This document shows positions 10,578-43,551 of a stretch of 59,996 nucleotides of DNA, one piece after another. Origin of the DNA: an uncultured Clostridia bacterium (lineage in GTDB: Bacteria; Bacillota; Clostridia; Christensenellales; DTU072); the NCBI GenBank assembly GCA_944349655.1, contig CALVNL010000006.1:1-59996 (forward strand), in the 5' to 3' direction. The translations under genes and the position numbers were made by a program. Below the pieces are notes generated by a model, which saw only the letters and a program-made list of their open reading frames with translations, did not search any database and was not told the origin of the DNA. How positions within the stretch are numbered: the first letter of the stretch is position 1; every line of letters begins with the position of its first letter.

Positions 10578-10606
10578 ATTATCGCCTATTTTACGTTGTT
10601 TGTAAA
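10578..10606 (-). promoter_or_regulatory. Sigma-A promoter of the PLDc_N-type gene
   Basis: Minus strand TTTACA (10601-10606), 17-base spacer, GATAAT (10578-10583). It sits 27 bases upstream of the ATG at 10551. Confidence 0.7.
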
Positions 10607-10706
10607 GAGTATTGACGTCGCAATAAAGAGGCTCGTTCCTTGCGCGTGCGGATACGTGCGGATAAAACGTTTGATTTTTATATTAGTCTATGATAAACTA
10701 ACAGCT

Positions 10707-11543
10707 ATGAGCGAAACAGTCATCTCGGTGGAGAACGTCTCCTATACTTACAAATCCTCGCAGAACGAAACCGTCGGCGTAAAAAATCTTTCCCTTTCCA
10801 TCGAAAAGGGAGATTTCGTTGCGTTCCTCGGTCACAACGGCAGCGGAAAAAGCACGCTTGCCAAACTGCTGAACGGTTTTCTTCTGCCCGACGAAGGTAA
10901 GGTTTTCGTGGAAGGGACGGACACCGCCGACGAAGCCAAAACTTACGAAATTCGCAGTAAAGTGGGAATGGTTTTTCAAAACCCCGACAACCAGATGGTG
11001 GCGTCCGTTATCGAAGACGACATAGCTTTCGGGCCGGAAAATCTCGGCGTGGAAAGGGAAGAAATCGTCCGCAGAGTGGACTGGGCGCTGGAAACGGTAA
11101 AAATGAGCGAATATCGCACCCGTACCCCTTTTAAGTTGAGCGGAGGACAAAAACAGCGTATTGCCATAGCCGCAATACTTGCCATGATGCCCGAAGTCCT
11201 GATCCTCGACGAGTCTACCGCAATGCTCGATCCCGAAGGACGGAAAGAAGTCCTCGATACCGTAAAAAGGCTCAATAAAGAAAAAAATATGACGGTAATA
11301 CTCATTACCCACTATATGGACGAAGCGCTGGAAGCCGACAAGGTTTTCGTTTTCAGCGAAGGTTCTCTGATAAAAGGCGGTACGCCGAGGGAGGTTTTTT
11401 CCGATTTCGGAGCGGTGGAAAAAGCCAAATTGCTTCTGCCCGTCGCCACTGCCGCGGGGAAGGCGTTAGTCGAAGCGGGAATAAAAATCAACGTTCCTCT
11501 TACCGATGAGGAACTGGCGGAGGAAATATGCTCGTTGAAGTAA
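10707..11543 (+). CDS. ecfA1: ECF transporter ATPase subunit EcfA1
   Basis: This is one of the two ABC ATPases that energise uptake by energy-coupling-factor vitamin transporters. The 278-residue protein has Walker A (GHNGSGKST, near residue 40), a Q-loop (MVFQNPDNQ), the ABC signature LSGGQKQRIAIA, Walker B (VLILDEST) and a switch His in LITHYMDEA. The ATG at 10707 was chosen because the family starts close to the first strand; an upstream ATG at 10596 would add 37 unrelated residues. No good Shine-Dalgarno sequence precedes 10707. Its end overlaps ecfA2 by 16 bases, and ecfT follows, so these genes form one operon. It is a shared (group II) module, because no S component lies beside it. The S component at 41766 is a likely client. 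Confidence 0.93.
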   Translation: MSETVISVENVSYTYKSSQNETVGVKNLSLSIEKGDFVAFLGHNGSGKSTLAKLLNGFLLPDEGKVFVEGTDTADEAKTYEIRSKVGMVFQNPDNQMVASVIEDDIAFGPENLGVEREEIVRRVDWALETVKMSEYRTRTPFKLSGGQKQRIAIAAILAMMPEVLILDESTAMLDPEGRKEVLDTVKRLNKEKNMTVILITHYMDEALEADKVFVFSEGSLIKGGTPREVFSDFGAVEKAKLLLPVATAAGKALVEAGIKINVPLTDEELAEEICSLK

Positions 11544-12382
11544 AAAATCTTTCCTACGTTTACAGCGAAAAAACTCCGTTCGAAAAACAGGCTCTCAAAG
11601 ACGTTTCTTTCGTGGTGGACGAAGGTCAGAGCGTGGGCATAGTAGGCGCCACGGGTAGCGGAAAAAGTACGCTCGTGCAACATCTCAACGGGCTTATCCG
11701 CTTGAAAAACGGTAAAATAACCGTTCTCGACATAGATTTATCCGCAAAAAAACCCGATCTGAAAGCTTTGCGTAAAGGGATAGGAATGCTTTTCCAATAC
11801 CCCGAATATCAGTTGTTTGCGGATACCGTGGCTTCCGACGTAATGTTCGGCCCGCTCAATTTCGGATTTTCCAAAACCGAAGCCGAGGAAGCCGCCCGCC
11901 GTGCAGTAAACATGGTAGGGATGGACTACGACTCGGTAAAGGACCGTTCCCCTCTGGAACTGTCGGGAGGACAAAAACGCCGCATCGCCATAGCCGGCGT
12001 GCTGGCATACCGTCCGAAAATCCTGATCCTCGACGAACCCACCGCAGGGCTCGATCCTGCAGGCAAAAGAGAAATGCTTTCCCTTATCGCATCCCTGAAG
12101 GGCGAAGAGATTTCCACGGTCATAACCGTCAGTCACAATATGGACGAAATAGCGGAATTTTCTCAAAGAGTTCTGGTCATGAATAACGGCAAACTGCTTT
12201 ACGACACCACCCCTTCCGAACTTTTCTACCGACTGGACGTGGAAGCGCTCGGTCTGAGTCTGCCGCACACGGTCAGAATAGTCAGACTTCTGAAGGAAAA
12301 AAATATCATTCTTCCCGAAGTGCTTACCGAAAAAGATCTCGTAGCCGCCCTTCTCGCCTACGCCGGAGGTCGCAATGCGTGA
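11528..12382 (+). CDS. ecfA2: ECF transporter ATPase subunit EcfA2
   Basis: This is the second ATPase of the ECF energising module; it pairs with EcfA1 and docks on EcfT. The 284-residue protein has Walker A GATGSGKST, a Q-loop (MLFQYPEYQ), LSGGQKRRIAIAGVLA, Walker B ILILDEPTAGLDP and a switch His in VSHNMDE. The sequence is typical of EcfA2, including the phrase QLFADTVASDV after the Q-loop. It starts inside the end of ecfA1 and overlaps ecfT by 8 bases, which points to translational coupling and balanced subunit supply. Confidence 0.94.
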   Translation: MLVEVKNLSYVYSEKTPFEKQALKDVSFVVDEGQSVGIVGATGSGKSTLVQHLNGLIRLKNGKITVLDIDLSAKKPDLKALRKGIGMLFQYPEYQLFADTVASDVMFGPLNFGFSKTEAEEAARRAVNMVGMDYDSVKDRSPLELSGGQKRRIAIAGVLAYRPKILILDEPTAGLDPAGKREMLSLIASLKGEEISTVITVSHNMDEIAEFSQRVLVMNNGKLLYDTTPSELFYRLDVEALGLSLPHTVRIVRLLKEKNIILPEVLTEKDLVAALLAYAGGRNA

Positions 12383-13187
12383 CGTAGCTTTCGGTCAATT
12401 CTATCCTGCGGACTCATTCGTCCATAAGCTCGACCCGAGAACCAAACTTTTAGCCGGCATTGTTTATATCGTGGCGGTGTTTCTCTGCACCTCATACTAC
12501 TCGTATCTCGCCTGCTTCCTTTTTCTCGTAATCTCGATTATAGTATCCCGTATCCCTATAAGAAGCGTCCTGAAAACGGTAAAAGCGGTTTTATTTATAA
12601 TAATTATCACAGTCGTCATCAATATTCTTTTTTACTCCGACGGCAAGGTTTTGTGGTCGTGGTGGAAACTTACGATTACCGAACAAGGTCTTATTTTCGC
12701 TTCCAAAATGGCTATGAGACTGTTGTTTCTGGTGCTTTCCACTTCTTTAATCACGCTGACGACCACCCCCATGAATCTGACAGACGGACTGGAAAGCCTG
12801 CTCACTCCTCTTAAATGGATAAAATTTCCCGTCCACGACGTGGCGATTATTATGAGTATAGCTTTAAGGTTTATTCCTTCCTTTATGGAAGAAATAGACA
12901 AAATAATGATGGCGCAGAAAGCCCGCGGGGCGTCTTTCGACACCGGCGGACTGATAAAAAGGGCAAAGGCGTTGCTGCCCATACTCATCCCCCTTTTCGT
13001 ATCGGCTTTCCGCAGAGCGGACGAACTGGCAATGGCGTTGGACGCGCGTTGTTATAACGCCACGCCCAACCGTACCAAAATGAAAAAACTTACCTTTACC
13101 GGAAGAGACGTGGTCGCCTGGGTGCTGACCGCGGCGTTCCTTGCGATAATTATAATGCTCCGCACGGGCTTTTTCGGGCTTTTGTGA
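12375..13187 (+). CDS. ecfT: ECF transporter transmembrane subunit EcfT
   Basis: EcfT is the membrane scaffold that couples the EcfA1A2 ATPases to interchangeable S components. The 270-residue protein has several hydrophobic segments (about residues 26-44, 46-64, 73-91, 110-130 and 247-265) and the conserved N-terminal phrase SFVHKLDPRTKLL. Two coupling-helix motifs are visible: AQKARGASF (ARG) and ALDARCYNA, where the second has the ARC variant common in Clostridia. It overlaps ecfA2 by 8 bases and truA by 4 (GTGA), as in the widespread ecfA1-A2-T-truA order. Confidence 0.94.
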   Translation: MRDVAFGQFYPADSFVHKLDPRTKLLAGIVYIVAVFLCTSYYSYLACFLFLVISIIVSRIPIRSVLKTVKAVLFIIIITVVINILFYSDGKVLWSWWKLTITEQGLIFASKMAMRLLFLVLSTSLITLTTTPMNLTDGLESLLTPLKWIKFPVHDVAIIMSIALRFIPSFMEEIDKIMMAQKARGASFDTGGLIKRAKALLPILIPLFVSAFRRADELAMALDARCYNATPNRTKMKKLTFTGRDVVAWVLTAAFLAIIIMLRTGFFGLL

Positions 13188-23900: not shown

Positions 23901-26900
23901 TTAATAAGGTTTGCGCTGTTCCCTGACTCTGTCTTCGGGATTGAGCGGATTTTCTCTCGGCACGGTGTTCCCCTTGGGAATGTTCTGTATGCCTCGGCGG
24001 TAAATGCCGCTCTTGTATGCCCTGTTGTAGGTGTTCAGGAACCTCTTGTGGCGTATTCCTGCAATTATTACCACGATTATTATTACTACGAGAAGACTTC
24101 CGCCGATTATGGCAAGCGTACGTATCATCTCCACGTCGAGATCCAACCCGAGGAAAGTTCCGTACGTTTCTTCGGTATTTACGTTAGCCTGAATATTTGC
24201 TTTTGCGGCAAGTACGAAAGTGGACAGTTCGTCGCTGGTGAACGTAACGCTCTTGCCGTCGCCTTCTATCTTCATTCCCTCTATGGGCGTAACGGTGCCG
24301 TCGGCTCCCAGTTTATATACGGCAAATCTGATATATTGACGGTAGTCTTCGGGTATGGGCAGATTGACTATAATGTCGCCCGTCGCCGTCTGACTAGCCG
24401 CGCCCGTGAGGCTGACTCTGTAAATGGATATAACCGCCCTTGCGTCGTCCTCGGTCGTTGCGCTGAAAAGCGCGCTTTGAGCATTGGTAAAATATTCGGA
24501 ATCGCTGCTGAAAGTCTCCACCTTGATCTTCGCCCCGGGAGCAAATTGCGCGTCCAGATTGACGCCGGTTTCTTCGTCGGAAAGAAGGAGAATTTCGCAA
24601 CGTTTCTTCAACGCTAAAAGTTTGGTGTAAAGATTGGTGGTGAAACAGGATTTCTGATCGGTGGTCATATCGTTATAGGCGTCGTAAACACGCAATACGT
24701 CGTTATAGTCGCCTGCTTCCGCCATATTGATGGCAGGAAGTTTCTTCACGCTGTCTTCCACCGCATAAACCATATCCATTTCTTTTTGCAAAGACTCAAA
24801 CACAACCAAAAGATTCTCGAAATAACCGTAATACTTACTGCTTGCGTCGCCCTTTATGGCGTCCTGTATCCACGCCTGCCCGTATAAAGCGTAATTGTTG
24901 TAGGTTTCCAGATATTCGTACATTTCAGGGTAATCGCTCTTAAGTTCGAAACTCGTCCTCTGGGACAATCTTTCAAGATACGCTCTGTAGGTTTCGATTT
25001 CGTTTTCCAAGGTAGTAATACGGTCTTTCAGACGGGAAATGAGGTTTCTGAAATATACCACCCTGCTCGGTTCCATATAACTTTCGGCGGCGTTGAGGTC
25101 CTCTTCGTATTTCTCCACGGTGCGGCGGTCTGCGTCGCTCAGCGTGACGTTGTTGACGTCCAGCGCAAAAGGATGAATATACAATTCGAAGGTAGCGGTG
25201 TTGCCGGCGTAGTCCTTTACGTAAATCTTGACGTAACCGCGGTACTCTTCGTTGTTGTTTGCCGGGTCGTAACGGGTGCTGTTGTCCACGCTGCTGGTGG
25301 AAAGGATGTATCCCGTCGGGTCGAGGGCAAATCCTCTGGTTTCGCCCTTAACCGTGATATACTCGCATATTTCGATATTTTCTTCCTCTATATAAACCTG
25401 CAGGTCGATATAGTGGATTTCATTTTCCACAACCTGTATTTCTTCGCTGTTCTTGAACTTGATAACGGGCGGAATGGTGTCTATGTTTACCTGGAAAACT
25501 TCGGTATGCGTAAGTCCCGCGTCGGTGGTCGCCGTAACGGTAAGGGTACATATTTTGTCGTATGTGAGGTTGCCTTCCGGCCAGTTTCCGGTAGCGCCCG
25601 TAGTGGACTCGAGGTCTGTATAGACGTAAGTATAAGTTACTCCCGAGACGTTTTTATGGTTTGCGTCGGCGGCTTTGGTTATCGTCACCTGTTTATAGTT
25701 AGTCCACTCGCCGCTGGAGATTACTCTGCTCTGACTGGAATCGTCGTTGCTGGCGAGTCCCGTCAAGGAAAATACAGGCACCACCTGATCGACTTTTATA
25801 CGTACGGTCTCTTCGGTATATTTATCGCTGTCCGCTCTGCTGGTGGCTCTGATAGTAACCAAAGCGTCCCTGTTGCGGTCGAAACCGTCCAGTCTGTCGG
25901 TGGTAAATCCCGTCAATGCGGGCGTTTCCCTGAAGGGAGTGCTGTAAAGTCCGGTATCGGTACTGTAGGTTATCTGATACTCCAGCTTGTAACCGCTGGC
26001 GTTTACCGTAGTCATTTCGATATTTATGGTTACGGGTATATTGGACCAGTTTGCCGCGCTTTCGCTGCTCAAATTGTCATCCCCGCCGTTATACGGCACG
26101 CCGTTTACGGTAGTGGTAATTTCGAAAGTCGGTTTCGCCGTGTCTATCGCAATATAAATCTTCTGATCGAAAATATATTCCGCCCCCGCCTTGTTGACGG
26201 CTTTGAAGGTAAAAGCGCTGTTGACGCCCTCGGGGAAAACTTCGCCGTTAAAGACAAGCTCTACCGCGTTAGCTTCGCCGGGTTGGAAAAATTCCGTTCC
26301 GCCCTGGACGTAAAGCGCCCAGGTCTTGCCGTCGTCTATGGAATAGTAATACCTTACCAAAGTATTGGAAGAAGTGGCGTAAAGGGTTATTTTCGCGTTT
26401 TCCTTCCAGATATAAGCGTACATATTGAGAGACTGATCGAAATACCCTCCGTCGTTGGGGTTATAACTGAGGTTTCCTCCCATCGCCGAGGTATCCACCA
26501 CGAATTTATACAAAACGGTATATTGTCCGTCCGCTACGCCTTCGGTATAATTCCCGAGTTCGTTGACGATATAGAAAATATAATAAAAAGTAGCGTTTTC
26601 GGCGGGAATGACCAGGTCGGAAGTAAGTTTCGTCCAACCGTTGAGGTTGTCGGAGGTGGGGTTGTCGCGCGGATAGGAAACGTCGTCTTCTCCGCTCATT
26701 GCGTAATAATAATAGCTTATCGCGGATCTGTCGGAGAATTGTTTGGGCGACAACGTGAGCGCGTCCTTGGTGTAATAGGTAATCGTGCGCTTACCGTCGA
26801 GATTGGACTCTTCGTTTATTCCGCTGGAAGTTATTATCATATCCGAAGTATCGGGCGTGGTGCGGTCTATTCTCATCAAACGAATGACGTCGCCGGCGGT

Positions 26901-29897
26901 GGAAGAACGGAAACCTGCTTCGTTGGTGACCGAAAGCGCTATGTATCCGTAGAAACTCTGTCCGGTGAAATCGACTTCGAAAATAAAGGTTCCGTTGCCG
27001 TCGTAATCGCCGCCGTCGCAGACTATCCAGGCCCCTTTATTGATTTCCTCGGTCAGATCCTGCCCCGCCTTATAACCGATAAGCATATAGTAATAAGTAT
27101 AATTCCTTTTTTCCTCTTCGGTAAGATCCGCTTCCGTGCCTTCGTCGTCTTTTTGCAAAGTAATTCTTACCGAAAGGTTGCCGTCCGTCCATTTGTCGGA
27201 AGAAATTTCTCCCGAGGTGTCGGTAAGCAATTCGTACCTTATGGATATATTGAGAGTATTATAGGGTACGACCAGTCTGTAAGGACTGTAAATATCCGTG
27301 GTTTTGCTTTCTTCGAGGTAATTTATCGCTTTGCTGACGAGATAAAATTCCTTTACTATCTCCCCTTTCAGTCCCTGCGGTACGGAAATGTAAATTTCAT
27401 TCCCTTCCACTTTGACGAAAGCGTTTTTGTCGGTATCGAAATAATAATAATCGAAGTGCCCTTGTTGCGAAAGGTTGGAAAAGAGGGTAACCTTGACGTC
27501 TTTGCAAACGGACCCTATCGTGATTACGTTGTCTATAACTTCGGAAGACGTGCTTTCGCCGTCCACTTCGGTCGTTATGCTTTCCAACACGATGTCGCTT
27601 ATATCGATATTGGCGAGGAAGGACTCTTCGGTATAAATGCCGGACCCTGTATAAACTCTGAAACGGTATTCCTTACTCATCATTACCGTTGCTCCGTCGG
27701 GCAGTCCTATTTCTATATTGTAGATATAATATCTCCCGTCGGCGGTGTCTTCGGTCCCGTCGGGCTGACGAACGGAGGAACTTTCCTGCCAGACCAGCTC
27801 TCCGTTTTCGTTATAAATGGGGTTCCCCGACGCGTCCACGGCAAACGACATATCCTTTACGTAAACTCCGCTCACGCCGTCTTTTACTCTCAGGGTAACG
27901 ACGATACGCCCGTTGACCCATTGCCCGCTGGCGATATAAACCAGCCTGTCGTATCCGCTGATTTCGGGTTTGATGTAAGCGGTGGTTTCCACCGTGGGTT
28001 TCACCGTGTCGATCTTGATGACGTTGGGCGAAACGAAAGTGTTGGCGCTGCGTTTACCGGCCGCATTCTGTGCGTAAATCGTAAAGGTGGATTCGGCGCT
28101 TGCAGAAAGATAAAATCTGTAAACGGACATTCCCTCGGTATTCTCTACGGGAGCGTAATACTCTCCTTCGGCACGATAAAGAACTCCCGCTATATTCGTG
28201 GGCGAATAAAAGAACGTGTATTTTGCGGTGGGCTCGGTATATCCGGTAATGTTACCTTCATAGTCGCGTAAAATCTCAGAGTCGCTGGGAACGGTAACGT
28301 AAACGGGTATAGGCACCGCCGACCAACCCGAAGAATTGGTGGTATAGGTGATGTCCTGAACTTCGATATTGAACACGGAATTGACCAAAGTCACCGAGAA
28401 AACGGCTTCGGGGCTCTTTTTGCCCGCGCCGCTTATGACGTAGAATTTATATTGCCTTGCCGAAACGACTTCTTTGGTTATGGTGTCGGTGAGAATATAA
28501 CAGGTCTGCCCGTTCTGAAGAGAGGAAACCGTCATTTTGCGGTATTCGCCGAAACCGCCTTCGCCGTCGCCTACGGCGTAATAAAATTCCGCTCCGCTGT
28601 CGTTTACTATGTAATTGCCGTCCACGTCCCTGTTGAAAGCCTGAATGATGACCTGCCCGTTGGCGTAACCGGCTTTATAGGTAAAGTCCGCCTGATTAAA
28701 GACGGCGTTGAGGTTCTTGTTCTGAGTTTCGTCCTCGGGATCGGGCGTATAACCTTCCAGATAAATTACCGGAGAAATCTTGTCGATATTGACCTGGAAA
28801 GCGTTGCCGGAATTGTAGTTATAGACCACCCCTGCTCCGTTTACCGCGCGGAAACGAAGTCCCGCGGTGGTACGGTTGACCCTGTAAACGCTCCCTTCCA
28901 GTCGGGAATACGTTATGCCGTCGGTGGAAACCTGATACTCTATCGGGCTGACGCATTCGGAATTGTCGGAGAAGGAAAAAGTAACGTCGTTACAGCTCCA
29001 GCTGCCGTTACTGTAAGAAATTTCCGTCCCGTTCACGTCGGTGGTTCTCGCTTCGAGATTGAAGACGGGCTCCTTGGTGTCTATACTGACTTTCTTGCCG
29101 TATTCGTGGTATTGCGCATACCTTCTGGAAATGTCGGTAACCTTGAACATAACCGTCCCTTCCTTCAGACTGGAAGTCACCGTCACCGAGTTGGACGCCA
29201 TAGGTATCCACGTTTTGGTTTCGTCGGTCGCCTCTTTCCCGTCCACCGAATAGAAAAGCAATTCGTCTCCGGGGTTATAGGCGGTGTTGTTGGTTTCCAT
29301 ATAAAGCGTGGTAACGGTAAATCTTATCCCGTCGCCCAGCCATTCGCCGTTATATTCCGTCCAGGTTCCGTTTTTGTTGTATTCTCCCGTGACGGGGTTG
29401 TCGTTAGCGAAGCCTATATCGCTTTCGCCGAGGTTCATATTTATGGAAATTTTCCAGCGGACGGGATATAGTTCGTATTTCTGCACGCCGCTTTCGGTAT
29501 AAACTCTGCGGATGTAAACGTAAATGTTTACTTTGTTTTCGGAATTGTACTGTATTCTTTCGAAAGTCTTTCCGTCGTGAGTCACTTCGTCGTCCATGGG
29601 AAACGACGTCCAAGACGTAATGGAAGAAATGGTGTCGTCGACGTTTTTGGCGGATACGTAATACTGGAAACTGTCGTTGGGATTACCGGAAGCAAGGAAG
29701 AACAAAGACGTCGTGGTGGTAACGGTATCTCCGTTGGACAAATCGGTATAACCGTCGCCCGAAGCCACGGTAACCCTCGCGTCCCAATCCACCGCCTCCG
29801 CCGCGGGAGAACCCGCAACGAGAGGCAACGCCGCTCCGGTCAGAATCAGCGAAGCCAGAAACAAGATAATAAATAATAATTTAGAACTTTTTTTCAT
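23901..29897 (-). CDS. Giant secreted Ig-like repeat protein with C-terminal membrane anchor
   Basis: The 1998-residue protein has a signal peptide (about residues 1-35, ending near SPAAEA). A long series of Ig-like/OmpL47-type domains follows, each opened by an (I/V)D-xxxP linker: SIDTKEPVF, NIDKISPVI, KIDTVKPTV, RIDRTTPDT, AIDTAKPTF, KVDQVVPVF and NIDTIPPVI. A helical, coiled-coil-like part covers about residues 1580-1770. A short folded domain follows, then a membrane helix at about 1926-1950 (IIGGSLLVVIIIVVIIAG), with about 45 basic cytoplasmic residues after it. There is no LPXTG motif. It is probably an adhesin or wall-spanning stalk. The start follows GAGG and an AAGGA further upstream. 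It heads a long run of minus-strand genes. Confidence 0.9.
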   Translation of the reverse strand: MKKSSKLLFIILFLASLILTGAALPLVAGSPAAEAVDWDARVTVASGDGYTDLSNGDTVTTTTSLFFLASGNPNDSFQYYVSAKNVDDTISSITSWTSFPMDDEVTHDGKTFERIQYNSENKVNIYVYIRRVYTESGVQKYELYPVRWKISINMNLGESDIGFANDNPVTGEYNKNGTWTEYNGEWLGDGIRFTVTTLYMETNNTAYNPGDELLFYSVDGKEATDETKTWIPMASNSVTVTSSLKEGTVMFKVTDISRRYAQYHEYGKKVSIDTKEPVFNLEARTTDVNGTEISYSNGSWSCNDVTFSFSDNSECVSPIEYQVSTDGITYSRLEGSVYRVNRTTAGLRFRAVNGAGVVYNYNSGNAFQVNIDKISPVIYLEGYTPDPEDETQNKNLNAVFNQADFTYKAGYANGQVIIQAFNRDVDGNYIVNDSGAEFYYAVGDGEGGFGEYRKMTVSSLQNGQTCYILTDTITKEVVSARQYKFYVISGAGKKSPEAVFSVTLVNSVFNIEVQDITYTTNSSGWSAVPIPVYVTVPSDSEILRDYEGNITGYTEPTAKYTFFYSPTNIAGVLYRAEGEYYAPVENTEGMSVYRFYLSASAESTFTIYAQNAAGKRSANTFVSPNVIKIDTVKPTVETTAYIKPEISGYDRLVYIASGQWVNGRIVVTLRVKDGVSGVYVKDMSFAVDASGNPIYNENGELVWQESSSVRQPDGTEDTADGRYYIYNIEIGLPDGATVMMSKEYRFRVYTGSGIYTEESFLANIDISDIVLESITTEVDGESTSSEVIDNVITIGSVCKDVKVTLFSNLSQQGHFDYYYFDTDKNAFVKVEGNEIYISVPQGLKGEIVKEFYLVSKAINYLEESKTTDIYSPYRLVVPYNTLNISIRYELLTDTSGEISSDKWTDGNLSVRITLQKDDEGTEADLTEEEKRNYTYYYMLIGYKAGQDLTEEINKGAWIVCDGGDYDGNGTFIFEVDFTGQSFYGYIALSVTNEAGFRSSTAGDVIRLMRIDRTTPDTSDMIITSSGINEESNLDGKRTITYYTKDALTLSPKQFSDRSAISYYYYAMSGEDDVSYPRDNPTSDNLNGWTKLTSDLVIPAENATFYYIFYIVNELGNYTEGVADGQYTVLYKFVVDTSAMGGNLSYNPNDGGYFDQSLNMYAYIWKENAKITLYATSSNTLVRYYYSIDDGKTWALYVQGGTEFFQPGEANAVELVFNGEVFPEGVNSAFTFKAVNKAGAEYIFDQKIYIAIDTAKPTFEITTTVNGVPYNGGDDNLSSESAANWSNIPVTINIEMTTVNASGYKLEYQITYSTDTGLYSTPFRETPALTGFTTDRLDGFDRNRDALVTIRATSRADSDKYTEETVRIKVDQVVPVFSLTGLASNDDSSQSRVISSGEWTNYKQVTITKAADANHKNVSGVTYTYVYTDLESTTGATGNWPEGNLTYDKICTLTVTATTDAGLTHTEVFQVNIDTIPPVIKFKNSEEIQVVENEIHYIDLQVYIEEENIEICEYITVKGETRGFALDPTGYILSTSSVDNSTRYDPANNNEEYRGYVKIYVKDYAGNTATFELYIHPFALDVNNVTLSDADRRTVEKYEEDLNAAESYMEPSRVVYFRNLISRLKDRITTLENEIETYRAYLERLSQRTSFELKSDYPEMYEYLETYNNYALYGQAWIQDAIKGDASSKYYGYFENLLVVFESLQKEMDMVYAVEDSVKKLPAINMAEAGDYNDVLRVYDAYNDMTTDQKSCFTTNLYTKLLALKKRCEILLLSDEETGVNLDAQFAPGAKIKVETFSSDSEYFTNAQSALFSATTEDDARAVISIYRVSLTGAASQTATGDIIVNLPIPEDYRQYIRFAVYKLGADGTVTPIEGMKIEGDGKSVTFTSDELSTFVLAAKANIQANVNTEETYGTFLGLDLDVEMIRTLAIIGGSLLVVIIIVVIIAGIRHKRFLNTYNRAYKSGIYRRGIQNIPKGNTVPRENPLNPEDRVREQRKPY

Positions 29898-41023: not shown

Positions 41024-41057
41024 AAACGATTTCGGAAAATAAAATTCGCTCTTTCTG

Positions 41058-41087
41058 CGGAAAGGTTTGCTACCTTTCCGTTTTTTT
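41058..41087 (+). terminator. Lipoprotein terminator whose loop holds the next promoter's -35
   Basis: A 9-bp stem (cggaaaggt, 41058-41066, with acctttccg, 41072-41080) has a 5-base loop ttgct and then T7. It is the same design as at 39652. Confidence 0.85.
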
Positions 41088-41095
41088 ATTATAAT
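41067..41095 (+). promoter_or_regulatory. Promoter of the B12-riboswitch operon, embedded in a terminator
   Basis: TTGCTA (41067-41072), 17 bases, TATAAT (41090-41095). The -35 is exactly the hairpin loop plus one stem base. The start point would be near 41102, just before the riboswitch. Confidence 0.72.
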
Positions 41096-41103
41096 AAGGA
41101 ACA

Positions 41104-41249
41104 TATACCGTTCAAGGAAGGGAGCGGACTCAATCCCAAGCCCCACAGCCCCCGCTACTGTATAGGATAATGCCGTACGCCACCGAAAGGGAAGGCAGGC
41201 GCTTTTCGGGTCACCGCCGAAAAGTCCGGAGTCAGGATACTTGCGGATA
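41104..41249 (+). promoter_or_regulatory. Cobalamin riboswitch
   Basis: Conserved parts appear in order: aagggagcggactcaatccc, the core cagcccccgctactgta, the GCCAC...GGGAAGGC pair (gccaccgaaagggaaggc) and the B12 box GTCAGGATACTTGC. The 5' and 3' ends (tcaag near 41112, cttgc near 41240) can close P1. No terminator follows, so control is probably at translation. The ribosome site GGAGG (41265-41269) is itself the loop of a 5-bp tatac/gtata hairpin (41260-41274). Confidence 0.9.
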
Positions 41250-41278
41250 TGAAAATTTTTATACGGAGGGTATAACCT

Positions 41279-41761
41279 ATGAAAAAAATCCTGATTGCGG
41301 GACTTTCCGTCCTGCTTTTGTGTCTGTCGGTCTTCTGCCTTGTCGCCTGTAACGACGGACCTGCTCCCGTCGTCGCCGAAAAAATCGTCTTTTCGGTGGA
41401 AGAAACGGGAGTAAAAGTCATTTTTATCGACGCCGAAAACAATTCCGAAACCGCCTACGACGGCGCGTATTCTGCCGAATATCTGGACGACCTTATCTAT
41501 TTCCTGGCGGGAAAAGAAGTCCTGGAAGCCGAAAGTTCTTCTTCGCAATACGGCTCTTTCTTTACCAAAATCGGCAGCCTTTCTCAGTCCGACAACAATT
41601 ATTTATATTTCTACACCAACCTCGACGAATATAAGGACGTCACCGATTACGCCCTCACCGAAACCTATAACGACCTTACCCTCACCAGCGTGAGTTTAGG
41701 CGCGTCCTCCTTGCCCGTAAAAGCGGGAGCCGTCTATATGGTGACCCTCGTTTCCTTCTGA
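41279..41761 (+). CDS. DUF4430 (transcobalamin C-terminal-like) lipoprotein
   Basis: The 160-residue lipoprotein has the lipobox LVAC. Its DUF4430-like fold includes YLDDLIYFLAGKEVLEAESSSSQYGSFFTKIGSL and NNYLYFYTNLDEY, followed by a closing VKAGAVYMVTLVSF strand. DUF4430 is related to the corrinoid-binding domain of transcobalamin and intrinsic factor. It sits directly under a cobalamin riboswitch and 4 bases before an ECF S component, so a role as surface corrinoid binder that feeds the transporter is likely. GGAGGG lies 8 bases before the ATG. The family assignment is by motif, not by search. Confidence 0.8.
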   Translation: MKKILIAGLSVLLLCLSVFCLVACNDGPAPVVAEKIVFSVEETGVKVIFIDAENNSETAYDGAYSAEYLDDLIYFLAGKEVLEAESSSSQYGSFFTKIGSLSQSDNNYLYFYTNLDEYKDVTDYALTETYNDLTLTSVSLGASSLPVKAGAVYMVTLVSF

Positions 41762-41765
41762 GAAA

Positions 41766-42323
41766 GTGTCCCCTAAGACGATTTTTATAAGAAAACTGGT
41801 TCTGACGGCTCTTTGCGGAGCCATTCTGAACGCAGTCAAATTTTGTCTTATGTATATACCGAACGTGGAGGCGGTGACCCTCCTTACGGTAGTTTTTACC
41901 TACGCTTTCGGTTTGAGCGTGAGTTTTCCCGCCACCCTCGTTTTCTGCGTTATAGAAGGCTTTTTGTGGGGTTTCAACCCTTCCTGGCTCATTGCTTATT
42001 TCATCCATTGGCCCTTTCTTTCTCTCGTCGCCGCTTTCTGTAAAAAACTTCGGCTGTCCTTTCCCCCTTTGCTCGCCCTCGTAGTCGCATTCGTGACCGC
42101 TCTTTTCGGTTTGCAAAGCACTTTCGTCTATTTCCTTACCGGCGGCGCCGTGGGTACTCCCGGTTGGTTTTCTTCTTTCCGTACCGTTTATCTTGCGGGG
42201 ACGGCTTTCTATATAACTCAGACCGTCTGCGCTTTCGTGTCGGTAACTTTTCTGTTTTCTCCTCTGAGAAAACTTCTCACCTCTTTAGGCGACTCCTATT
42301 TCGGGAAAAAACGCCCTCTCTGA
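41766..42323 (+). CDS. ECF transporter S component, probably for cobalamin or a corrinoid precursor
   Basis: The 185-residue membrane protein has about six hydrophobic segments and the organisation of an ECF S component. It has a basic start, LTALCGAILNAVKFCLMYIP, and an FGLSVSFPATLVFCVIEGFLWG block like those of S components that scan extracellular substrate. It starts with GTG at 41766, only 4 bases after the DUF4430 stop, so the two are coupled and share the riboswitch. No ATPase or T subunit is adjacent; EcfA1A2T at 10.7-13.2 kb could energise it. Substrate is inferred from the riboswitch. Confidence 0.82.
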   Translation: MSPKTIFIRKLVLTALCGAILNAVKFCLMYIPNVEAVTLLTVVFTYAFGLSVSFPATLVFCVIEGFLWGFNPSWLIAYFIHWPFLSLVAAFCKKLRLSFPPLLALVVAFVTALFGLQSTFVYFLTGGAVGTPGWFSSFRTVYLAGTAFYITQTVCAFVSVTFLFSPLRKLLTSLGDSYFGKKRPL

Positions 42324-42347
42324 TTTCCCTTTTACTCTTCCTTTCCG

Positions 42348-42377
42348 TTGCTTTTTCGCCCGAAAAAAGGTTATAAT
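42348..42377 (+). promoter_or_regulatory. Possible internal promoter with 16-bp palindrome before the [2Fe-2S] gene
   Basis: TTGCTT (42348-42353), 18 bases, TATAAT (42372-42377). The spacer contains the palindrome tttttcg-cc-cgaaaaa (42352-42367), a candidate operator. The start would lie about 48 bases before the ATG at 42432. Confidence 0.55.
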
Positions 42378-42431
42378 TTATTCGAACGGGATTTTCCGTT
42401 CCGAAATAATCGGAAAAGTATCGGAGTATTT

Positions 42432-43502
42432 ATGCACAACGTCATTATAAACGGAAAAAAAATATCGGCACAAGACGGTTGTCCGCTGAAAGAAATTCTG
42501 GAAAAAAACGGATTTAACTTTCCTTGCGGCGGTACGGGTAAGTGCGGCAGATGTCGTATAACAAGCCCCGACCTTGCGCCTACCGCCCTCGACGAAAGAT
42601 TTTTGTCGCCGCGGCTTCTTTCCGAAGGCGTACGCCTTGCCTGCGACAAAGTGGTAACTTCGTCTTTGACCGTTTCCTGCGAGCTTTCCGCTCCCGCAAA
42701 ACCGATAACGCCTATAAAGGAATGTTCTCTTGCGGTAAGTATCGGCGACGAAGAAATAGACGTGGGAATAGTTGGCGAAGAGCTTTGCGAAACCGTTACT
42801 TTGAAAAATCCCCTCTTTCTTCCCACTCTCGCCGAAGACTACGAAAAAAATCCTTCCTCCGCCACCAACGCGCTCCGCGCCGCCATCGGAAAAACAGGCG
42901 TGGAACTGTTCGAAAAATACGGAGCCGCCAAGGCTTCCGTCATAGCCCTCGCGGCAAAAGAAGTGTATCTTAAAATTCTTGCAGGACAAAAGTTATCCGA
43001 AACCTTCGACTACGAATGTTCTTCGGGCAGGGAAACGTTCGGTCTGCCTACCGAAAGTTTATATATCCTGCCGGGAAAAGGCGACTTTATCGGAGGGGAA
43101 ATTTTTGCCGAAAGCGTCAATCTCAAAGAAAGAAGTCTGCTTATCGATTGCGAAAAAACCGCAACATTTCTCCATATCGACGAAAAAGACAATCTCGCCG
43201 CCTTTTTCTGGAATTGCGACTACTCCGACGTGGCAGCCGAGTGTTTCCGCGCGGCGGTGAAGTTCTTTGCCGAAGACAAACCCGCTCCTTGCGTTTACCT
43301 CTGCGGTCGCTACGCCGATAAAGTCGAAGACTATCTTTCCGAGCTGCCTTTTCCCGTTATTCAGTTGGAAAAAAGCCTTTCTTCGGTGGTTTCCGCTTTG
43401 CTTTCTTTTCGTCAGAGAAGTAAACTGTCGAGAGAATGCAACGCCACGACCGTCGTCCGACTCTACGACAACGAAACGTTTCAGAAATTCCTTACCGAAT
43501 AA
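42432..43502 (+). CDS. [2Fe-2S] ferredoxin-ASKHA protein, reduced RACE-like corrinoid activator
   Basis: The start at 42432 (MHNVIING) has GGAG 6 bases upstream. In this 356-residue protein the first 80 residues are a plant-type [2Fe-2S] domain with NFPCGGTGKCGRCRI and a distal LAC. The rest resembles the activator half of RACE proteins (RamA/RACo), which reductively reactivate corrinoid enzymes. It has LPGKGDFIGGEIFA where the family has the G-[AG]-D-x-x-A block, then LLIDCEKTATFLHIDEKDNLAAFF where the family has DIGTNGE. It is much shorter than usual (about 600 residues), and the nucleotide-loop residues are lost. The cobalamin context supports the family call; activity is uncertain. Confidence 0.7.
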   Translation: MHNVIINGKKISAQDGCPLKEILEKNGFNFPCGGTGKCGRCRITSPDLAPTALDERFLSPRLLSEGVRLACDKVVTSSLTVSCELSAPAKPITPIKECSLAVSIGDEEIDVGIVGEELCETVTLKNPLFLPTLAEDYEKNPSSATNALRAAIGKTGVELFEKYGAAKASVIALAAKEVYLKILAGQKLSETFDYECSSGRETFGLPTESLYILPGKGDFIGGEIFAESVNLKERSLLIDCEKTATFLHIDEKDNLAAFFWNCDYSDVAAECFRAAVKFFAEDKPAPCVYLCGRYADKVEDYLSELPFPVIQLEKSLSSVVSALLSFRQRSKLSRECNATTVVRLYDNETFQKFLTE

Positions 43503-43525
43503 AGCTGAACCCCTTTTTCTTTTTT

Positions 43526-43551
43526 CCGCTCCGAAAGGAGTGGATTTTTTT
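43526..43551 (+). terminator. Rho-independent terminator of the B12 locus
   Basis: Stem ccgctcc/ggagtgg (one G-T pair), GAAA loop, then a T7 run, 23 bases after the stop at 43502. Confidence 0.82.

Follow-up and report, generated by a model that had tools for sequence, protein, structure and literature searches.

Among the described systems, the one closest to the locus analysed here is ECF-CbrT of Lactobacillus delbrueckii (PDB entry 6FNP), a proven transporter of both cobalamin and cobinamide, whose cbrT gene sits in an nrdJ-cbrS-cbrT-pduO cluster (PMC5997447). The two systems share an S component that is homologous over its full length, a shared (group II) ECF module and the placement of the S-component gene in a B12 gene cluster. 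They differ in the make-up of that cluster, which in our case consists of a riboswitch, a lipoprotein gene and an S-component gene; the main text of the L. delbrueckii paper contains neither the word 'lipoprotein' nor the word 'riboswitch' (PMC5997447). A cbrT region is also named on plasmid CP013155 (PMC6722938), and our own search of plasmids with the S component returned no match. For the lipoprotein, the nearest counterpart comes from Lacticaseibacillus rhamnosus, where one protein bears the name 'additional lipoprotein component of putative cobalamin ECF transporter' and the DUF4430 gene LGG_02295 adjoins rtpR, the gene for a B12-dependent ribonucleotide reductase (PMC9963975). We read these two as the same protein. 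It resembles ours in being assigned to a cobalamin ECF transporter and in the position of its DUF4430 gene beside rtpR; it is, however, known there by annotation alone, and the likeness drawn here is one of description (PMC9963975). The BtuG and BtuH proteins of Bacteroides are similar in idea only, in that they are lipoproteins on the cell surface and catch B12 for a transporter, and belong instead to outer-membrane systems of Gram-negative bacteria (PMC6143338; PMC8941943). We found no functional test of a lipoprotein of this ECF-associated kind in the open-access literature. To our knowledge, a capture step is usually thought unnecessary for ECF transporters. The original prediction had proposed that the combination of lipoprotein and ECF component might be undescribed, which does not survive comparison with the Lacticaseibacillus annotation (PMC9963975) and the L. 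delbrueckii cbrT cluster (PMC5997447): the lipoprotein/CbrT pair occurs widely and has been annotated before in other bacteria, and the present locus adds another case.

The window, by which we mean the whole stretch of 59,996 nucleotides from an uncultured Clostridia bacterium of the gut (genome G000), very probably contains a cobalamin-repressed unit for B12 capture and ECF uptake at 41102-42323, followed by a third gene that is probably an independent neighbour under a promoter of its own. The unit opens with a cobalamin riboswitch aptamer (41102..41251, + strand). A covariance-model search gave an RF00174 match at 41061-41262 on the + strand, scoring 42.9 bits (gathering threshold 31.5; E 1.7e-7), and this is the single match in the source genome (1.66 Mb scanned, 96% complete). 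Both the riboswitch originally claimed and the RF00174 check proposed for it are thereby upheld. The true aptamer start is more likely to lie at about 41102, close to the 41104 first proposed, than at Rfam's 41061. The Rfam 5′ end overlaps an intrinsic-terminator-like hairpin (41057..41081, +; a 10-pair stem followed by T7) which closes the upstream alaS and large-lipoprotein genes, and a promoter-like site, TTGCTA-17-TATAAT (41067..41095, +; 10/12 matches), lies directly 5′ of the riboswitch. The P1 stem, read by eye at 41102-41116/41240-41251, pairs CATAT with ATATG (41102-41106/41247-41251), CCG with CGG (41108-41110/41244-41246) and CAAG with CTTG (41113-41116/41240-41243). Its counterparts, also read by eye, are ATACA/TGTAT and TCAAG/CTTGA in genome G004 and ATAC/GTAT and CCGA/TCGG in genome G005, and the structure of the riboswitch is supported because the pairing is kept there by different bases.

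The ribosome-binding site of the lipoprotein gene, GGAGG (41265..41269, +), begins 14 bases past P1 with no terminator between, and control is therefore probably translational. A possible TTATAC/GTATAA hairpin would hold this GGAGG in its loop and is a candidate translational expression platform; the same arrangement is present in G009, G004 and G005. Because the hairpin is not the minimum-energy fold of the region taken in isolation (RNAfold), translational control is something that we infer. Control by the riboswitch would reach the coupled S component only and not the third gene. Riboswitches of this class usually sense AdoCbl, and AdoCbl or another corrinoid is the presumed ligand here and would cause repression.

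The first gene of the unit (41279..41761, +) encodes a lipoprotein of 160 aa with an ATG start, a signal peptide and a lipobox, LVAC. On its own this protein matches no Pfam or NCBIfam model above cut-off, nor PF14478 at E<=1, and the label 'DUF4430' therefore rests on the family profile and the predicted fold: PF14478 (DUF4430) matches 3 of the 46 family members at E<=0.01, with a best value of 9.2e-6. An AlphaFold2 model computed from the 46-member alignment has a mean pLDDT of 93, and its best 17 PDB matches in Foldseek are all transcobalamins, intrinsic factor or one DUF4430 protein (3u7z). The probability is 1.00 for 16 of these, among them the top matches (5np4, 5no0 and 3u7z), whose E values are a modest 2.6e-3 to 6e-3. 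A family profile search, which is independent of Foldseek as a method, likewise placed 3u7z, intrinsic factor and transcobalamin-2 in its first four entries. The lipoprotein is thus predicted to have the fold of the transcobalamin beta domain. The vertebrate beta domains that it resembles, those of transcobalamin-2 and intrinsic factor (5np4, 5no0, 2pmv), have this predicted fold and an aligned central segment in common with it; unlike them it is a bacterial lipoprotein, it lacks the alpha-helical (alpha) domain and it shares only ~10-16% identity. The modelled fold suggests that the lipoprotein binds corrinoids. Three considerations count against this: the lipoprotein lacks a Pfam match of its own, transcobalamin has a second half besides the beta domain, and not every DUF4430 member is known as a B12 binder.

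The second gene (41766..42323, +) has a GTG start 4 bases past the lipoprotein stop and encodes a CbrT-like ECF S component of 185 aa. Taken alone it matches no Pfam or NCBIfam model. A profile built from 19 relatives (A2) retrieved from the PDB only chain A of 6FNP at E<=10, with an E value of 2.7e-12 and positions 1-178 aligned to 1-176, and by this sequence comparison the S component is a CbrT homologue over its full length. Cobalamin binding and transport by the S component would be expected from the homology. The remaining parts of an ECF transporter are encoded in the same window: the ATPase EcfA1 (10596..11543, +, with a likely start near 10707; TIGR04520, 368.6 bits against a cut-off of 315), the ATPase EcfA2 (11528..12382, +; TIGR04521, 349.3 bits against a cut-off of 330) and EcfT (12375..13187, +; PF02361, E 6.0e-46, with TIGR02454 below its cut-off), which is the only EcfT found in the genome. 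No BtuF-family binding protein was found in G000 by a search that detected one in 13 of 14 control genomes. Elsewhere in the window, 23901-29897 on the minus strand is a single open frame of 1998 aa.

When species genomes were scanned for the S component by itself, 59 loci came up, two of them cut at a contig end. All belong to bins of uncultured Clostridia or Bacillota, and many carry the name Christensenella or Christensenellaceae. In every one of the 57 loci with upstream sequence, the gene directly upstream of the S component matches the lipoprotein profile; the scan did not select for the lipoprotein, but some of the scanned contigs had also supplied rows of that profile. The pairing is near-obligate. 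Cobalamin-type riboswitches lie just upstream of the pair in 22 of 34 scanned loci (10/19 in a first set, which overlaps with the scanned one), with AdoCbl-II riboswitches in two further loci. About a third of the scanned relatives lack a riboswitch at the Rfam level, which counts against a role in B12 uptake. In three genomes of the same genus, G006, G003 and G008 (loci L015/L096, L069 and L070), the pair stands under an AdoCbl-II riboswitch (RF01689) and not RF00174, and the S component belongs to a different group. The neighbours of the pair, named from their translations, vary and include ecfAA'T, metH, recA, rpsF-ssb, proS, fba and others; the unit is therefore the riboswitch together with the lipoprotein and the S component. 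The pair also lies ~1.4-2.6 kb upstream of alaS in L100, L102, L114, L115, L120, L122 and L127, and in the window alaS is upstream of the pair, so an old link to the alaS neighbourhood may exist.

A function in B12 capture and uptake is well supported because computation directly yields CbrT homology, the transcobalamin-like fold of the lipoprotein, EcfA1, EcfA2 and EcfT within the window, the near-obligate pairing and the riboswitches, and finds no BtuF. The original prediction, a Gram-positive unit under a B12 riboswitch that captures corrinoids with a transcobalamin-like lipoprotein and takes them up through an ECF transporter, gains support on each of these counts (RF00174, the 6FNP profile match, the fold and the 57/57 pairing). 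Under such a scheme, scarcity of B12 would lead the riboswitch to leave the ribosome-binding site free, and the two translationally linked genes would be made. The lipoprotein would bind extracellular corrinoid and then pass it to the S component, which would draw its energy from the shared EcfA1-A2-T module (10596-13187), and the imported vitamin would serve the few B12-dependent enzymes of the cell, MetH above all. The pairing and the predicted fold both point to hand-over from lipoprotein to S component. We give an even chance to the stronger proposal that a single beta domain, tethered as a lipoprotein, is a dedicated extracellular capture protein which hands cobalamin to the ECF S component and is an obligate subunit in Christensenella-related bacteria. 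One difficulty for an uptake unit is the source of AdoCbl, since neither searched type of cobalamin adenosyltransferase (PF01923, PF02572) was found in G000, which is ~96% complete. An unlikely alternative is that the S component imports a precursor or another corrinoid, such as cobinamide or pseudo-cobalamin, or that the lipoprotein binds something other than a corrinoid, with the riboswitch serving as a general corrinoid control. The DUF4430 protein 3u7z, which is annotated as a putative metal-binding protein, would fit such a ligand, and cobinamide is also taken up by CbrT of L. delbrueckii (PMC5997447). On the other hand, the fold match of the lipoprotein is specific to B12-binding domains, and ecfA or metH adjoins the pair in several loci.

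The gene that follows the pair (42432..43502, +) encodes a protein of 356 aa and ends before a terminator-like hairpin (43525..43544, +). A TTG at 42348 was considered as its start and set aside, ATG 42432 being likelier. The N-terminal part carries the four cysteines of a [2Fe-2S] motif (C32, C38, C41 and C71), and a model built from six sequences (mean pLDDT 85) has RACo, the reductive activator of corrinoid/iron-sulphur protein, at ranks 1-4 in Foldseek (3zyy, E 4.5e-14). It shares with RACo (3zyy, 4c1n) the N-terminal [2Fe-2S] domain and an ASKHA-type fold, but has 356 residues compared with ~630 and adjoins no corrinoid protein. Compared with the full-length activators of related genomes, AVSIGDEE replaces AVDIGTTT, DCEKTAT replaces DIGTNGE and ~90 nucleotide-binding residues are absent; no match to the canonical activator domain PF14574 was found in G000. 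Cysteines kept, nucleotide motifs lost and PF14574 missing together identify a shortened, degenerate RACo relative. In these respects the original description was accurate, both for the order of the locus (a lipoprotein and an S component 4 bases apart behind the riboswitch, then a [2Fe-2S]-ASKHA protein, as the coordinates and motifs confirm) and for the shortened and degenerate character of the activator. Two relatives of the third protein from the same genus (L060:2787-3857 and L063:3319-4344) lack the [2Fe-2S] cysteines, so the family appears to drift away from redox function.

The original prediction went further and placed this third protein in the corrinoid route, and the analysis does not bear that out. 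We regard it as quite improbable that all three genes form one B12-controlled pathway in which the [2Fe-2S]-ASKHA protein reduces or remodels corrinoid after import. Such a pathway would explain why the genes share a strand, with no convincing terminator in the gap after the S component and a strong one only 3′ of the third gene, and why the third protein keeps four cysteines and a RACo-like fold, although in some members of its family the cysteines are lost. The gap before the third gene, however, contains a promoter-like site, TTGCTT-18-TATAAT (42348..42377, +). All four same-strand gaps (G000, G009, G004 and G005) contain a perfect TATAAT and, at a spacing of 16-18 bases, a -35-like hexamer; such a site arises in 1-11% of shuffles per gap, and G000 and G009 are not independent. 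Only these four genomes have the third gene 3′ of the pair and in the same orientation as it; in G022 and G027 the pair faces the opposite way. A match to the family of the third gene is present in most genomes of the taxonomic family, where it usually stands behind one of two sets of genes, a large membrane/lipoprotein gene plus a CvpA-like one or alaS plus a large lipoprotein gene, with no B12 pair between. These neighbours include no corrinoid-protein gene, and none of the 15 third-gene loci without the pair has a cobalamin riboswitch. In most genomes the third gene is independent of the B12 pair. A conserved cluster in L057-L068 and L071 comprises the CvpA-like gene, a large membrane-anchored protein and the degenerate [2Fe-2S] protein of RACo type, often joined by a small protein starting M..DYME.LAR. 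The three-family co-occurrence search originally proposed came out in favour of the pair (57/57, with riboswitches at 22/34), but not of the third gene, whose presence shows no association with CbrT (21/4/6/3, p = 0.35).

In favour of a link, the pair has the same two genes on either side in two genera, and is on the same strand as the third gene in g1; in g6 it is on the opposite strand, and the riboswitch there faces the other way. Independent insertion at one spot in g1 and g6 was considered as proof of a functional link and set aside, since a single ancestral placement common to both is not rejected (p-AU 0.26). That same result means that some link between pair and third gene may exist. 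Uniting all S components of genus g1 in one group is rejected (p-AU 0.013), which suggests that the pair has been replaced or transferred inside this genus. A further possibility, which we consider very unlikely, is a stand-alone role for the degenerate RACo-like protein in helping to reactivate MetH, which would account for its place near B12 genes. No activation domain is fused to MetH in these genomes (open frames of ~780-870 aa), and the fold and Fe-S motif of the third protein would suit electron transfer. A separate protein of 180-250 aa with part of PF02965 is, however, encoded ~2-2.5 kb from metH in G002, G022, G025, G030, G042, G043 and others, and the association between third gene and MetH is not significant (p = 0.13), which together weaken the case for the third protein as the missing activator. 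Other families of the order mostly have MetH without the third gene, and in family f1 the latter is absent from 4 of 27 MetH genomes and present in 4 of 7 without a MetH match. The third gene is therefore probably a neighbour with its own promoter, outside the B12 unit.

Setting the third gene apart from the riboswitch, lipoprotein and S component avoids wrongly assigning a B12-reducing role to a family of degenerate activators. The near-perfect pairing at 57 loci across uncultured Clostridia makes the proposed hand-over between lipoprotein and S component directly testable. If it is real, it would add a substrate-capture subunit to a class of transporters held to work without one, and it would provide a simple bacterial model of the transcobalamin beta domain, the fold used by the B12 carriers of vertebrates.
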